Source of the DNA: Planctomycetota bacterium
GTDB lineage: Bacteria; Planctomycetota; Phycisphaerae; UBA1845; UTPLA1
DNA length: 40,277 nucleotides
Assembly: GCA_016235815.1 (NCBI GenBank)
Contig: JACRIM010000008.1
Location: 1 to 40,277 of the forward strand
Reading direction: 5' to 3'
Below, one piece after another: positions 31,188-35,817 of this stretch. Numbering within the stretch: the stretch's first letter is position 1; the number at the start of each line of letters is the position of its first letter. The notes beneath the pieces were generated by a model. That model was not told the DNA's origin and searched no databases. It was given only the letters and a program-made list of their open reading frames with translations. Made by a program: the position numbers and the translations under genes.

Positions 31188-33098
31188 ATGTCCAAGATCA
31201 TCGGAATTGACCTCGGTACCACGAATTCGGTCGTGGCCGTCATGGAAGGCGGACAGCCCAAGGTCCTCACCAACGCACTCGGCGCCCGAACCACGCCGTC
31301 AGTGGTCGGCTTCTCCGACAAAGGCGAGCGGCTTATTGGCCAGATCGCCAAGCACCAGCAGGTCACCAACCCGACCAACACCGTCTACAGCGTGAAGCGC
31401 TTCATGGGTCGGCGACATAACGAAGTCGCCTCCGAAGAGAAGCTTGTTCCCTATGGCGTCGTCGGTGGCCCCGATGAGTTGGTGAGTGTCAAGGTTCGCG
31501 ACAAGAACTACACGCCGCCCGAGATCTCCGCGATGGTCCTGCAAGACCTCAAGAAGACCGCGGAGGATTACCTCGGCGAAAAAGTCACCGCCGCGGTCAT
31601 CACCGTCCCGGCATACTTCAACGACGCCCAGCGCAAAGCCACGCAGGAAGCCGGCATCATCGCCGGCTTCGACGTGAAGCGCGTCCTCCCCGAGCCGACC
31701 GCCGCGGCACTCGCCTACGGCATGGATAAGAAAAAAGGCGGCAAAATCGCCGTCTTCGACCTCGGCGGCGGAACCTTTGACATCAGCATTCTTGATGTCG
31801 GCGACGGTGTCTTTGAAACGCTCTCCATCAACGGCGACACGCACCTCGGCGGCGACGACTACGACATGGTCCTCATCGACTACGTCGCGGACGAATTCCG
31901 CAAGCAGTATGGCGTCGATCTCCGCAAAGACCCGATGGCCCATCAACGCCTGAAGGAAGCCTGCGAGAAAGCCAAGTGCGAACTCTCCGGCAACATGGAG
32001 ACGACAATCAATCTGCCGTTCATCACCGCCGACGCCAGCGGGCCGAAGCACCTGAACCAGACGCTCACCCGCGCCAAGTTCGAACAGCTCACCGGCCCGC
32101 TCACCGAGCGATGCCGCGGACCCGTGCTCAAAGCCCTTTCCGACGCCAAGCTCAGTCCGCGCGATATCTCCGAAGTCATCCTCGTCGGCGGCTCGACGCG
32201 CATTCCCGCGGTGCAAAAGCTCTGCCAGGAAATCTTCGGCAAAGAGCCGAACAAGAGCGTCAACCCCGACGAAGCCGTCGGCATCGGTGCGGCCATTCAG
32301 GCCGGCATCATTGCGGGCGACGTGAAGGACATTCTCGTGCTCGATGTCACGCCGCTCTCCCTCGGCGTCGAAACGCTCGGCGGCGTCATGACCGTCATGA
32401 TCCCGCGAAACACGACGATTCCCACCAGCAAGAAAGAGACATACTCAACCGCCGCCGACAATCAGCCCGAAGTGTCGATCCACGTCCTCCAGGGCGAGCG
32501 ACCCATGGCCGTCGATAACCGAACCATCGGCCGGTTCAACCTCGCCGGCATCCCGCCGGCCCCGCGCGGCACGCCGCAGATCGAGGTCACGTTTGACATC
32601 GACGCCAACGGCATCCTCCACGTCTCCGCGAAAGATCTCGGCACCGGCAAGGAACAGAAGATCAAGATCGAAGGCTCCAGCGGCCTCGACCCGGCCGACG
32701 TCGAGCGAATGCGCAAGGAAGCCGAGGCCCACGCCGAAGACGACCGGAAGAAGCGCGAACTCATCGACGCCCGCAATCAGGGCGACTCGGTCATCTATCA
32801 GACCGAGCAAACCCTCAAGGAGCACGGCGACAAAGTCCCGGCCGACGAGCGCAGCAAGGTCGAGTCCGCGATCAACAACTTGAAGGAACGCTTGAAGTCC
32901 GACGACGCCGGCTCCATCAAGAAGGCCGTGGAAAACGTGCTGACCGCCTCGCAGGCCATCGGCAAGATCATCTACGAGCAATCGGCGAAGGCAGCCGGCG
33001 CAGCTGGTGGCCCGCAACCACCCCCGCAAGACGGCGGCGGCAAGTCGGCAAAGAAGGACGAAGACGTCATCGATGCGGAGTATGAGGTGAAGTCGTAA
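31188..33098 (+). CDS. dnaK: Chaperone protein DnaK (Hsp70)
   Basis: Encodes 636 residues. ATP-driven chaperone that binds exposed hydrophobic segments and works with DnaJ and GrpE. The nucleotide-binding domain is standard: [63 protein letters not shown] and [12 protein letters not shown]. The linker [13 protein letters not shown] and substrate-binding domain (QVQ-type [17 protein letters not shown]) follow, then the helical lid and a tail ending [13 protein letters not shown]. An AAGGAG lies 7 nt upstream. No dnaJ or grpE lies next to it. Confidence 0.98.
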
Positions 33099-33112
33099 CA
33101 GCGATCCCAGTT

Positions 33113-33143
33113 AGCCCCGGGTTAATGACTCGGGGCTTTTTTT
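33113..33143 (+). terminator. Intrinsic terminator of dnaK
   Basis: AGCCCCG (33113-33119) pairs perfectly with CGGGGCT (33131-33137) and a run of Ts to 33143 follows. It lies 15 nt after the dnaK stop. Confidence 0.93.
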
Positions 33144-33162
33144 GCTTTAAGCGAATCCAAAA

Positions 33163-33399
33163 ATGCCGACGATTGCCCGAATAGGCCCCTATCGCATATA
33201 CTTTGTGAGTCACGATATGAAGGAGCCGCCGCACGTCCACGTGGACCGGGACGACAAATCGGCGAAGTTCTGGCTAACCACAGTCTCGTTGTCTCGCAAT
33301 ATCGGCTTTGGCTCCAGGGAACTACGCGACCTCGAACGTATCGTGACAGAACACCAGCAGGAGTTTCTCAATGCCTGGCACAAATACTTCGGTCGTTAG
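33163..33399 (+). CDS. DUF4160 family protein
   Basis: Encodes 78 residues. The pattern IGPYRIYFVSHDMKEPPHVHVDRDDKSAKFWL and the closing ELRDLERIVTEHQQEFLNAWHKYF is typical of DUF4160. The HVHV segment is the most conserved part. The family has no proven function but is usually encoded in front of DUF2442, a layout like a toxin-antitoxin pair. No Shine-Dalgarno; the gene begins 20 nt after the dnaK terminator. Its end overlaps the next gene by 29 nt. Confidence 0.85.
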   Translation: MPTIARIGPYRIYFVSHDMKEPPHVHVDRDDKSAKFWLTTVSLSRNIGFGSRELRDLERIVTEHQQEFLNAWHKYFGR

Positions 33400-33655
33400 C
33401 GCAGGACTGCGTGTGATGAGTGTTGCATGCGACGATGACGCGCTCAGCGTCGATCTGGCCGACGGTCGCCGAATCACCGTCCCCCTTGCGTGGTACCCGA
33501 GTCTGCTCCATGCCACACCGCAACAACGAGGCAACTGGAAACCGGCTGGCGGCGGCTATGGAATCCACTGGCCGGACATTGACGAGGACCTATCCGTCGA
33601 AGGTTTGCTCTTCGGCGCACCGGCACCGAACGTCAAATTGAATGCGGTAGCGTGA
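33371..33655 (+). CDS. DUF2442 family protein
   Basis: Encodes 94 residues. The DUF2442 features are VACDDDALSVDLADGRRITVPLAWYPSL, then GNWKPAGGGYGIHWPDIDEDLSVEGLLFG. An AGGAG lies 7 nt before the ATG at 33371, inside the upstream DUF4160 gene, which supports this start and coupled translation. Members are thought to be DNA-binding or antitoxin-like partners of DUF4160; that is inference. Confidence 0.87.
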   Translation: MPGTNTSVVSAGLRVMSVACDDDALSVDLADGRRITVPLAWYPSLLHATPQQRGNWKPAGGGYGIHWPDIDEDLSVEGLLFGAPAPNVKLNAVA

Positions 33656-33782
33656 TCGATGCGGAGTAGGAGATGGCGTTGTAAATGCGATGCAGAATTG
33701 CCTCGGCGCACTTGCTTTGTGCTTGAGGACTGAATGTCCGTGGCGGATCGACAGAGCGCCGTGGGGCCGCGCTAGGGCGAAT

Positions 33783-33994
33783 AGGCCGGTTCACCGGCCT
33801 TTCCCAAAAGGCTAATAGGCCAGTCCTTTTGGACTGGTCGATAGGGCAGCAGCATCCCAGTTTTCCCCCACTCACCCCCCGCCCGCGTAACGAGCGGGGG
33901 GTGAGTGGGGGGAGTTAGAACCGCCGCGCCACCAATCCCAGCCCTAAAGGACTGGGCTATAAACCCTTCGGGAAACCCCCGTGAACGGGGCTAA
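33783..33994. repeat. Left copy of a ~215-bp composite palindromic repeat
   Basis: Direct repeat of 34689-34907, in the same orientation, left of the transposase gene. It contains, in order: AGGCCGG-TTCA-CCGGCCT (33783-33800); CCAGTCC-TTTT-GGACTGG (33820-33837); an 18-bp perfect stem with arms 33865-33882 and 33894-33911 and an 11-nt loop; CCGCCGCG; CCCAG...CTGGG (33949-33957 region); CCC-TTC-GGG; and CCCCG-TGAA-CGGGG, ending GGGGCTAA. The unit is non-coding. It is either a REP cassette moved by the neighbouring transposase or a structured RNA or DNA. Confidence 0.85.
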
Positions 33995-34120
33995 GGACAG
34001 GTAAATCGATGCGACCTATTTTTGATCCAACCACTCCTCGGAGTCAAAGGTAACCGGACTGAGACAATCCACCAATCCAATAGCCCCAACGATCACCCAC
34101 GCCTGCATCACCAATCTACA

Positions 34121-34549
34121 TCATACGCCAAACCGCTCAATCATCTCCAACCGCTCCTGTGTCGTCCGCTGCGCGTGATGCTCCTTTTGATTGCGTATAT
34201 ACGACACCACCCACGGCAGATCCTTCGATCCGAAACTCACCACACCGTATCCCGTCTGCCACGCCAGCACCTTTCGATTCGCAATCTTACTGTTGATGTA
34301 ATGCGAACTCGCCCCCTTTAACTCCCCAATCCACTCAGAGATCAATAGCGTCGGCGGCAAACTCACCGCCAGATGCACATGGTCCGGCATGCCGCCGACC
34401 TCATGCACAATCACGCCCGACGTTTGCAATGCCCGATGCCGCAAATAATGATGACACCGATTCTCAATCGAATCGATGAGCACCGGCGTGTTGTCCTTCA
34501 CGTGCCATGTAATGTGCAAATTGATTTCGCAATATGCGTTCCGCGACAT
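34121..34549 (-). CDS. REP-associated-type Y1 transposase (IS200/IS605 TnpA superfamily)
   Basis: Encodes 142 residues from the ATG at 34549, which has GGAGG 5 nt upstream, rather than the ATG at 34561. Single-domain HUH endonuclease: the HUH pair is in GMPDHVHLAVSLPP, and the catalytic Tyr is in the carboxy-terminal helix VVSYIRNQKEHHAQRT. Such enzymes nick single-stranded DNA at hairpins and join it through a tyrosine link. The absence of tnpB and the position between two copies of a palindromic repeat fit a RAYT, the enzyme that spreads REP elements. The gene lies opposite to its surroundings. The flanking sequence (34550-34688) holds no other gene. Confidence 0.9.
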   Translation of the reverse strand: MSRNAYCEINLHITWHVKDNTPVLIDSIENRCHHYLRHRALQTSGVIVHEVGGMPDHVHLAVSLPPTLLISEWIGELKGASSHYINSKIANRKVLAWQTGYGVVSFGSKDLPWVVSYIRNQKEHHAQRTTQERLEMIERFGV

Positions 34550-34688
34550 TGAACCCTCCATCTGATTTGATGGACAAGATGATATTCAATGATGTTCGCA
34601 TCCGCCAAACTATTCTCGCTGGCACAGGCAGCGCAACGGCGCGCGATCGCAAGGGAACCACTGCACAACGAGGTGGCACGGTCATCTC

Positions 34689-34907
34689 AGGCCGGTTCAC
34701 CGGCCTTCCCCGAAGGGCTACTAGGCCAGTCCTTTAGGACTGGTCGACCAGGCGACGCAATCTCTCCATTAATTCCCCCTACCCTCCCTCCGGCCCGCCG
34801 CGCGGGCCGGGGGGAGGGTGGGGGGAATTGGAACCGCCGCGCGACAAATCTCAGCCTTGAAGGGCTGGGCTAACGACCCTTCGGGCAACCCCCGTGAACG
34901 GGGCTAA
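34689..34907. repeat. Right copy of the ~215-bp composite palindromic repeat
   Basis: Same orientation and module order as 33783-33994. AGGCCGG-TTCA-CCGGCCT at 34689-34706; CCAGTCC-TTTA-GGACTGG at 34726-34743; a long stem of 27 bp (arms 34771-34797 and 34803-34829, two G:T pairs, 5-nt loop); CCGCCGCG; CAGCC-TTGAAG-GGCTG; CCC-TTC-GGG; CCCCG-TGAA-CGGGG, ending GGGGCTAA at 34907. The long stem differs in sequence from the left copy but still pairs. Confidence 0.85.
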
Positions 34908-34985
34908 TCCAATTAATCTCACTTTCAGAAAATTCCACGATATTATGAAACCAGTCGACACAGAATATCTTCCTTGAGACTCCTC

Positions 34986-35669
34986 ATGATCCGCATCGCC
35001 CAATCCGCCAACCCCCTCGAAGCCCGCCATATCCAGGGCGTCCTTGAGGAACACGGCATCCGCGCCTCCATTCAAGGAGAAGCCCTCTGGGGCGTGCGCG
35101 GCGAGCTGCCCTTCACCGCTGAATCCGCCCCGTCCATCTGGGTCGCCGACGAGGCCGACGCCGCCCGTGCGAAACAAATCCTCGCCGAACACGCCGCCCC
35201 CGCGAACCCCACGCACTGCCGATACTGCGGCCACGACCTTCACGGCATCACCGAACCCGCCTGCCCGAATTGCAAGATGCCATTCCGCAAGGTCGGCACC
35301 TGGACCTGCCCCGAATGCCACGAACACATCGGCACCCAATTCACCCATTGCTGGAGCTGCAACCGCGAGCGCGGCGACACCGCCGAAACCGTGACAGCCC
35401 AAGAATCCGCCATCGCGTCCCCATGCGAACACTGCAACGGCACCGGCTACACCGGCGGCTTCCTTGCACCGTTCATTCTCTTCGGCTTCGGACTGTTCTT
35501 TGCATACGCAGCGCTTCACGAGTTGGTTGAACTGACCCCCGTGCTCGCCATCCAGCCCAACCGCCTCGTCGGCCGCCTCCTCTTTGCCCTCCTCGCCGCA
35601 GCCTGCTTCCTCGTCGCCAACCGCTCCCGCCAAACACCATGTACCTGCACAGAATCGCCCGAGACCTAA
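34986..35669 (+). CDS. DUF2007-like protein with zinc ribbons and membrane helices
   Basis: Encodes 227 residues from the ATG at 34986 (a TTG lies 12 nt upstream). The start IRIAQSANPLEARHIQGVLE and IWVADEADAARAKQIL match the DUF2007 putative signal-transducing domain (ferredoxin-like fold). Zinc-binding knuckles follow: CRYCGHDL, CPNC, CPEC, CWSC, then CEHCNGTGYTGG, which resembles one DnaJ-type CxxCxGxG repeat. Two hydrophobic helices (FLAPFILFGFGLFFAYAAL and LLFALLAAACFLVANRS) close the protein. Function unknown. It lies 79 nt right of the repeat. Confidence 0.75.
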   Translation: MIRIAQSANPLEARHIQGVLEEHGIRASIQGEALWGVRGELPFTAESAPSIWVADEADAARAKQILAEHAAPANPTHCRYCGHDLHGITEPACPNCKMPFRKVGTWTCPECHEHIGTQFTHCWSCNRERGDTAETVTAQESAIASPCEHCNGTGYTGGFLAPFILFGFGLFFAYAALHELVELTPVLAIQPNRLVGRLLFALLAAACFLVANRSRQTPCTCTESPET

Positions 35670-35817
35670 GCGGGGCGGGTTCTACTCGACCCACTGAATT
35701 CGAACACGATGCGCGCAGTTAAGAAAACCAGCGATGCAATTCGTTAGTGATCCCCGTCACGGGATCCGTCCATCCCTTATGGCCGGCACGTCCAAGACGG
35801 CGGCCTCGTTAAGCAGG

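Follow-up and report, generated by a model that had tools for sequence, protein, structure and literature searches.

A putative REPtron-like system: multi-hairpin composite repeats on both sides of a Y1 transposase gene in a Planctomycetota bacterium

Results

A transposase gene between two composite palindromic repeats

We analysed a 40,277-nucleotide stretch of DNA from a Planctomycetota bacterium (assembly GCA_016235815.1, contig JACRIM010000008.1; the whole stretch is called the window below), in which a gene for a Y1 HUH transposase, tnpA, lies between two long composite repeats made of hairpins. A preliminary description had placed a transposase gene between two direct repeats of ~215 bp; the repeats are indeed found at those places, and the open reading frame between them encodes a Y1_Tnp protein. 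Each composite consists of an arm of three hairpins, a long central hairpin and a second, inverted arm of three hairpins. Arms were located with R1, a covariance model of the arm built from 13 arms of this genome.

33783-33995 (+): left composite repeat, with three-hairpin arm, long central hairpin and inverted three-hairpin arm; R1 matches at 33780-33843 (+) and 33932-33995 (-)
33783-33841 (+): left arm of the left composite, of the type found downstream of tnpA in arm-tnpA-arm elements; hairpins 1-3, hairpin 2 being weak
33865-33911 (no strand): long central hairpin of the left composite
33937-33992 (-): upstream-type arm of the left composite; hairpins 3', 2' and 1'
34121-34561 (-): tnpA, 146-aa Y1 HUH transposase with motifs of TnpAY1 subclass 1.2
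34689-34907 (+): right composite repeat, modules in the same order; R1 matches at 34686-34749 (+) and 34845-34908 (-)
34689-34747 (+): downstream-type arm of the right composite
34771-34829 (no strand): long central hairpin of the right composite
34852-34905 (-): upstream-type arm of the right composite
31188-33098 (+): dnaK-like gene outside the element, a neighbour that marks the tnpA locus common to three species

The left and right composites (213 and 219 bp) stand in direct orientation and are identical at 179 of 209 aligned positions (86%). Each is also a near palindrome, with 78% and 81% identity to its own reverse complement, so that the two copies can be read both as direct and as inverted repeats. 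The order of the modules is the same in both copies, as first described, but their number is seven palindromic modules per copy rather than six: three in each arm plus the long central hairpin. The central hairpin has arms of 21 nt in the left copy and 28 nt in the right copy, and its sequence is not the same in the two. When folded as single-stranded DNA, both copies were far more stable than shuffled sequences (z=-8.7 and -8.8), none of 200 shuffles reaching the same stability. Their minimum-energy folds contain hairpin 1, hairpin 1' and the central hairpin as local structures, and the remaining parts of the arms pair arm to arm.

Stable palindromes in intergenic DNA could be regulatory or structural elements (terminators, insulators or RNA stabilisers) unrelated to the transposase, and such roles are ascribed to repetitive extragenic palindromes (REPs) in PMC6006769. 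We consider this very improbable here, since the gap that holds the left copy is convergent (33656-34120) and that of the right copy divergent (34562-34985), no Rfam match within 33000-35700 attained the gathering score of its family (the best matches being microRNA models on the long central hairpin), and related tnpA genes are themselves bracketed by hairpin arms.

The transposase has the motifs of TnpAY1 subclass 1.2

The tnpA product matched the Pfam family Y1_Tnp with 85 bits (cut-off 23) and the NCBIfam IS200/IS605 model with 75.7 bits (cut-off 55). Among relatives of solved structure found by sequence, the best was 2xm3 (E=2.4 × 10−8), which we take to be from ISDra2; the IS608 TnpA structure 2a6m was matched as well (E=3.6 × 10−7). 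The catalytic motifs are intact, comprising DHVH, WQ (in WQTGY) and YIRNQKEHH. Quentin et al. 2018 (PMC6006769) sort Y1 proteins by their HuH, W and Y motifs, and the window protein carries those of subclass 1.2: the HuH motif DH[IV]H as DHVH, WQ as WQTGY and Y---Q--HH as YIRNQKEHH. By these motifs the window TnpA belongs to, or adjoins, TnpAY1 subclass 1.2. That survey describes the subclass as low-copy, generally without terminal structures and with 'no' entered for REP, a conserved specific C-terminal domain being part of the description.

Two other assignments were rejected. The NCBIfam model REP_Tyr_transpos scored 26 bits, under its cut-off of 80, and the Y motif differs from the Y---NP of TnpAREP; the protein is therefore not a REP-associated tyrosine transposase (RAYT) in the usual sense. 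Membership of TnpAY1 class 3 fails on the motifs, which are Y----Q and NHVH in that class as against Y---Q--HH and DHVH here.

The Y---Q--HH motif is kept in 36 of 39 non-truncated homologues (the exceptions being L078, L079 and L174). A tree of 41 rows, of which two are plasmid genes, was divided by a 100/100 split into 20 and 21 rows. The members of the 20-row clade have at least 40% identity to the window protein, and all but a few of them carry an RLE motif at the end; in the other clade, a longer C-terminal stretch is common to most rows. The genome holds a single tnpA of the window clade, the next match of the same query being 28% identical. Y1_Tnp was matched at ten places in the whole genome; a motif scan, the only search made there, found no arm motif in the nine stretches around the other matches (L023-L031). 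As judged by eye, the tnpA frame of several homologous loci (L074, L075, L078, L079, L082-L084; also L060 and L175) seems to run into the inner hairpin and stop there, the proteins ending in translated hairpin sequence, namely PAEAG, PAQAG or, before the stop, EAR.

Arms vary in sequence and keep their pairing across genomes

R1 was searched against this genome (G000) and 60 relatives, 61 genomes in total, and against a separate class sample of 397 genomes; 150 candidates were scored in this genome, 86 per genome in the set of 61 and 13 in the class sample, so that all R1 arm counts are lower bounds and those of the class sample cannot exceed 13. In this genome, a draft assembly of 60 contigs, R1 found at least 14 arms in eight copies, which form four pairs on contigs C47 (the window), C41, C4 and C32. 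Both arms are present in six of the eight copies; each of the two C32 copies has a single arm (this pair begins 158 bases from the contig end), and one copy on C4 (C4a) lacks the central hairpin. R1 matched at E 0.01 in at least 20 of the 61 genomes, and at E 10−8 in at least 16 of the 397 genomes of the class sample.

In 111 arms from the loci retrieved, the stems vary in sequence while their pairing persists. Hairpin 1 occurs in 43 distinct strings, shortened stems included, mostly with the loop TTCA. Hairpin 1 had a stem of at least 5 bp in 79% of the real arms and in 7% of the shuffled ones, a figure favoured by R1 because the model contains the hairpin 1 pairs; for hairpin 2 the corresponding shares were 50% and 9%, and for hairpin 3, which is not in the model, 62% and 13%. 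A GT[AG]G foot was found on neither strand at hairpin 1 (0 of 80) or hairpin 3 (0 of 65), the two hairpins counted, and TAGG precedes hairpin 3 in 44 of 65 arms. With no such foot, and with copies of more than 200 bp, the repeat is not a canonical REP, which is a short hairpin on a GT[AG]G foot. Exact-pattern scans of genome contigs gave no match, the pattern being narrow and near genomes possibly lying outside the set scanned.

Transposase genes and arms occur together

Gene and repeats make up a single element in other families, tnpA having an inner hairpin and then an arm on either side (L060, L048, L059 and L074-L079), and arms without a gene, ~220-290 bp long, occur in G042, G051, G401, G343 and other genomes. 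We examined the flanks of 41 TnpA entries, which come from the loci retrieved (plus L060) and are a part of the matches listed, and from which two truncated and two short-flank entries were dropped (n=37). The inverted similarity of one flank to the other was above all 40 mononucleotide shuffles for 34 of the 37 genes, and 27 had at least two hairpins on both sides, compared with a background mean of ~0.5 hairpin per 350 bp in the rest of the same loci. Both plasmid genes looked at (Persicobacter and Bernardetia, Bacteroidota; two from eight matching plasmid records) likewise showed inverted flanks above shuffles. The general lack of terminal structures and of REPs ascribed to subclass 1.2 thus does not hold for most of these genes; it is a descriptive tendency of the subclass and not a motif definition. 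Downstream of another tnpA with the Y---Q--HH motif (L185, G028) there is a tandem array of hairpin units. The tnpA of G042 begins at a contig end.

Across genomes, a close tnpA (at least 57% identity) and at least eight arms went together, the latter being found in 6 of 6 genomes with such a gene and in 0 of 55 others (Fisher P=2 × 10−8). Any arm at E 0.01 was found in 6 of 6 against 14 of 55 (P=7 × 10−4). When the truncated gene of G015 is counted, the fractions become 6 of 7 for eight or more arms and 7 of 7 for any arm. As in a REPtron, the transposase gene is flanked by repeats that are also found elsewhere in the genome. The suggestion of a REPtron-like unit, made in the preliminary description, is thereby strengthened: searching the host genome and its relatives brought to light dispersed copies, gene-less ones included, which track the transposase across genomes, and the repeat is neither confined to this locus nor equally common in genomes with and without a close tnpA. 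Our search of the literature, which covered mostly open-access journal papers, did not turn up subclass 1.2 genes described together with such repeats.

The locus could alternatively be an ordinary IS200/IS605 insertion sequence (IS) whose ends merely happen to be complex, in keeping with the NCBIfam assignment and with the arm-tnpA-arm elements of other families, where the gene is inside as in an IS. We judge this improbable, because in the window the gene lies outside either composite, between two complete composites and not between one left end and one right end, the genome has a single gene of the clade in a neighbourhood common to three species, and the motifs are those of subclass 1.2 and not 1.1.

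The tnpA locus is old

A dnaK gene lies within 3 kb of tnpA in this genome, G001 and G015, which represent three species and two genera, and in each case a complete or partial composite stands alongside; this comparison leaves out G007, which also has a close tnpA. In G001 the gene is 76% identical to that of the window, with one arm on one side and, on the other, a composite split by ~1.5 kb of other DNA; the interruption (L032, 7908 to 9560) looks like another insertion sequence. In G015 a truncated tnpA lies beside one copy. The ratio of non-synonymous to synonymous substitution rates (dN/dS) between the window and G001 genes was 0.15, with dS ~1 (own script), and the gene is apparently under purifying selection. 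The tnpA gene is thus old; it is the sole member of its clade in the genome and keeps the same neighbourhood in two genera. In G008, dnaK is directly followed by the gene that here lies beyond a DUF2007 gene, so that the 2.7 kb separating these two genes in the window is missing; this stretch holds other genes too, however, and the site is therefore not a precise empty site.

Four direct pairs of composites enclose single genes

Every one of the 14 arms detected in this genome belongs to one of four direct pairs with a spacing of 0.86-1.21 kb, each pair enclosing one gene: tnpA, a gag-type aspartyl protease (PF13975), a DUF642/HpiC1-like protein and a protein with a weak likeness to PEP-CTERM (13.9 bits, under the cut-off of 20.7). 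A rough formula, in which the distance limit was set after the fact, puts the number of such complete pairings within 1.3 kb that chance would give at ~10−11. When all 105 possible pairings were ranked by similarity, the real one came second; the C41 copies are 93% identical.

Mobile insertion cassettes (MICs) have transposase-free ends around a passenger gene. The paired composites would be similar if they were the ends of a larger mobile unit, with TnpA acting in trans to pair the outer ends of two composites and move the gene between them. The patchy distribution of the aspartyl protease would suit such cargo, with relatives (L122-L134) in 7 of 61 genomes and at least two matches in each of four (G003, G054, G019 and G052), as would the confinement of every arm to a pair around one gene and the tendency of pair members to resemble each other. 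On the other hand, seven loci with homologues of the protease, read by eye, had no such repeats in their flanks, and G003 and G054 gave no R1 match at all. Copies elsewhere are mostly single, with close copies in L051, L059, L104 and L106, and the one-armed C32 copies and the C4a copy are incomplete as cassette ends. Nor was an empty site found: searches through the DUF2007 gene, the gene following it and neighbours of the aspartyl protease and DUF642 pairs (the latter a Mu gp37-like gene) gave none that was precise, the flanking genes of these two pairs do not occur together in the relatives' stretches viewed (1.5 kb on either side), and in L092/L094/L096 (G401) and L033/L034 (G001) the shared flanks run past the composite with no clean boundary. 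Insertion near existing copies or local duplication would yield pairs too and is taken as the default, which leaves the cassette as an unlikely, minority reading. A broader version, in which an IS200-like enzyme serves a trans-acting, single-strand gene-shuffling system of composite-gene-composite units with tnpA as merely one cargo, appears to us doubtful to the same degree. The idea that repeat, gene and repeat form a family moved as a whole, also raised in the preliminary description, is thus at most suggested by the four pairs.

A REPtron-like model

Taken together, these data lead us to favour, with a probability of about 0.62, a REPtron-like system whose transposase is a Y1 HUH enzyme that falls within or close to TnpAY1 subclass 1.2. 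Its observed basis is the anatomy of the composites, the pairing kept in arms of varied sequence and the co-occurrence of arms with the gene. The composites look like non-autonomous derivatives, similar to REP doublets forming hairpins (REPINs) or to palindrome-associated transposable elements (PATEs), since elsewhere the gene lies within one arm-tnpA-arm element and gene-less composites occur in those same genomes. We infer the part played by TnpA in recognition, nicking and movement from the chemistry of IS608/ISDra2 TnpA and of TnpAREP, as described in PMC6006769. TnpA would bind the hairpins when the DNA is single-stranded, as during replication; its tyrosine would nick near the feet of the outer hairpins, and the segment from arm to arm would be excised and re-inserted. 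Gene-less composites would be mobilised in trans, like REPINs or PATEs, and the tnpA locus itself would now be static. The copies beside tnpA and the three other genes may then have arisen by insertion near existing copies or by local duplication.

Several observations weigh against the REPtron-like model. The genomes compared gave no instance of excision or insertion and no precise empty site, and the mobility of the composites is deduced from their dispersed and diverged copies. The minimum-energy folds of the window copies do not contain separate hairpins 2 and 3. The inverted-flank test failed for three genes, L073 (the intact G001 orthologue), L183 and L188, and L174 (G051) has a Trp at the position of the catalytic Tyr, which another G051 copy, L060, keeps. 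With regard to co-occurrence, the eight-arm limit was set after the table had been seen and R1 was made from this genome; counting G015, with its truncated tnpA and one arm, spoils the complete agreement (6 of 7). Arms are also present where a close tnpA is missing, as in G008 and G020, which have at least seven each and no tnpA match at E 10−25.

Comparison with known systems

The system shares with REPtrons and REPINs served by RAYTs (TnpAREP, class 2) the palindromic repeats flanking a transposase gene, the inverted doublets elsewhere and the stable locus; an old, single and apparently purifying-selected tnpA is likewise as described for REPtrons. It differs in the Y motif (Y---Q--HH in place of Y---NP), in a ~215-bp repeat of seven palindromic modules and in the lack of GT[AG]G feet at the hairpins counted. 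Its likeness to TnpAY1 subclass 1.2, as described in PMC6006769, lies in the HuH, W and Y motifs, the protein length and, here, one gene of the clade per genome; the hairpin arms contrast with the entry there of no REP and generally no terminal structures, and the window clade, ending in RLE, is split 100/100 from rows with the other C terminus.

Terminal inverted repeat-associated tyrosine transposases (TIRYTs) and their TIRtrons (PMC3733652) are alike in that a tyrosine transposase is set between long inverted repeats, which are partly self-complementary and are found alone as well; 20 of 26 TIRYT examples fall in subclass 2.1 according to PMC6006769, and the subclass 1.2 motifs and the multi-hairpin plan set the present system apart. 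PATEs of Haloquadratum (PMC3119063) are similar as transposase-free relatives of IS605-type elements with near-terminal palindromes, and differ from the composites, whose ends each carry several hairpins and which in this genome also have a long palindrome at the centre. TnpAY1 class 3, reported from Planctomycetes, Acidobacteria and Proteobacteria (Quentin et al. 2018, PMC6006769), is comparable in its position between IS and REPtron and differs in the motifs given above. Overall, the system would work like a REPtron or TIRtron, with composites resembling REPINs and PATEs, and is distinguished by its transposase subclass and its multi-hairpin plan.

Since the survey described subclass 1.2 as neither IS-like nor REP-associated, the role of the subclass was left open there, and the association of subclass 1.2-type genes with hairpin repeats is absent from this main survey of the enzyme group. 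The inverted hairpin arms beside most tested genes, together with the gene-less composites, provide a candidate substrate for these enzymes, so that assays of binding and nicking could test directly what the enzymes do. Should the paired composites indeed carry genes, they would represent a new route of gene movement.

Neighbouring genes

The DUF642 pair lies just downstream of the Mu gp37-like gene (L021, 3198-3965), which occurs once in 15 of 17 family genomes searched (L155-L168) with conserved neighbours on one side; its cluster is possibly a domesticated phage or injection cluster. In the window, a small two-gene module, DUF4160 plus DUF2442, is followed by an imperfect repeat (73%) of the 3' end of the dnaK-like gene (33065-33120 and 33651-33706), and in G015 the module also follows dnaK.
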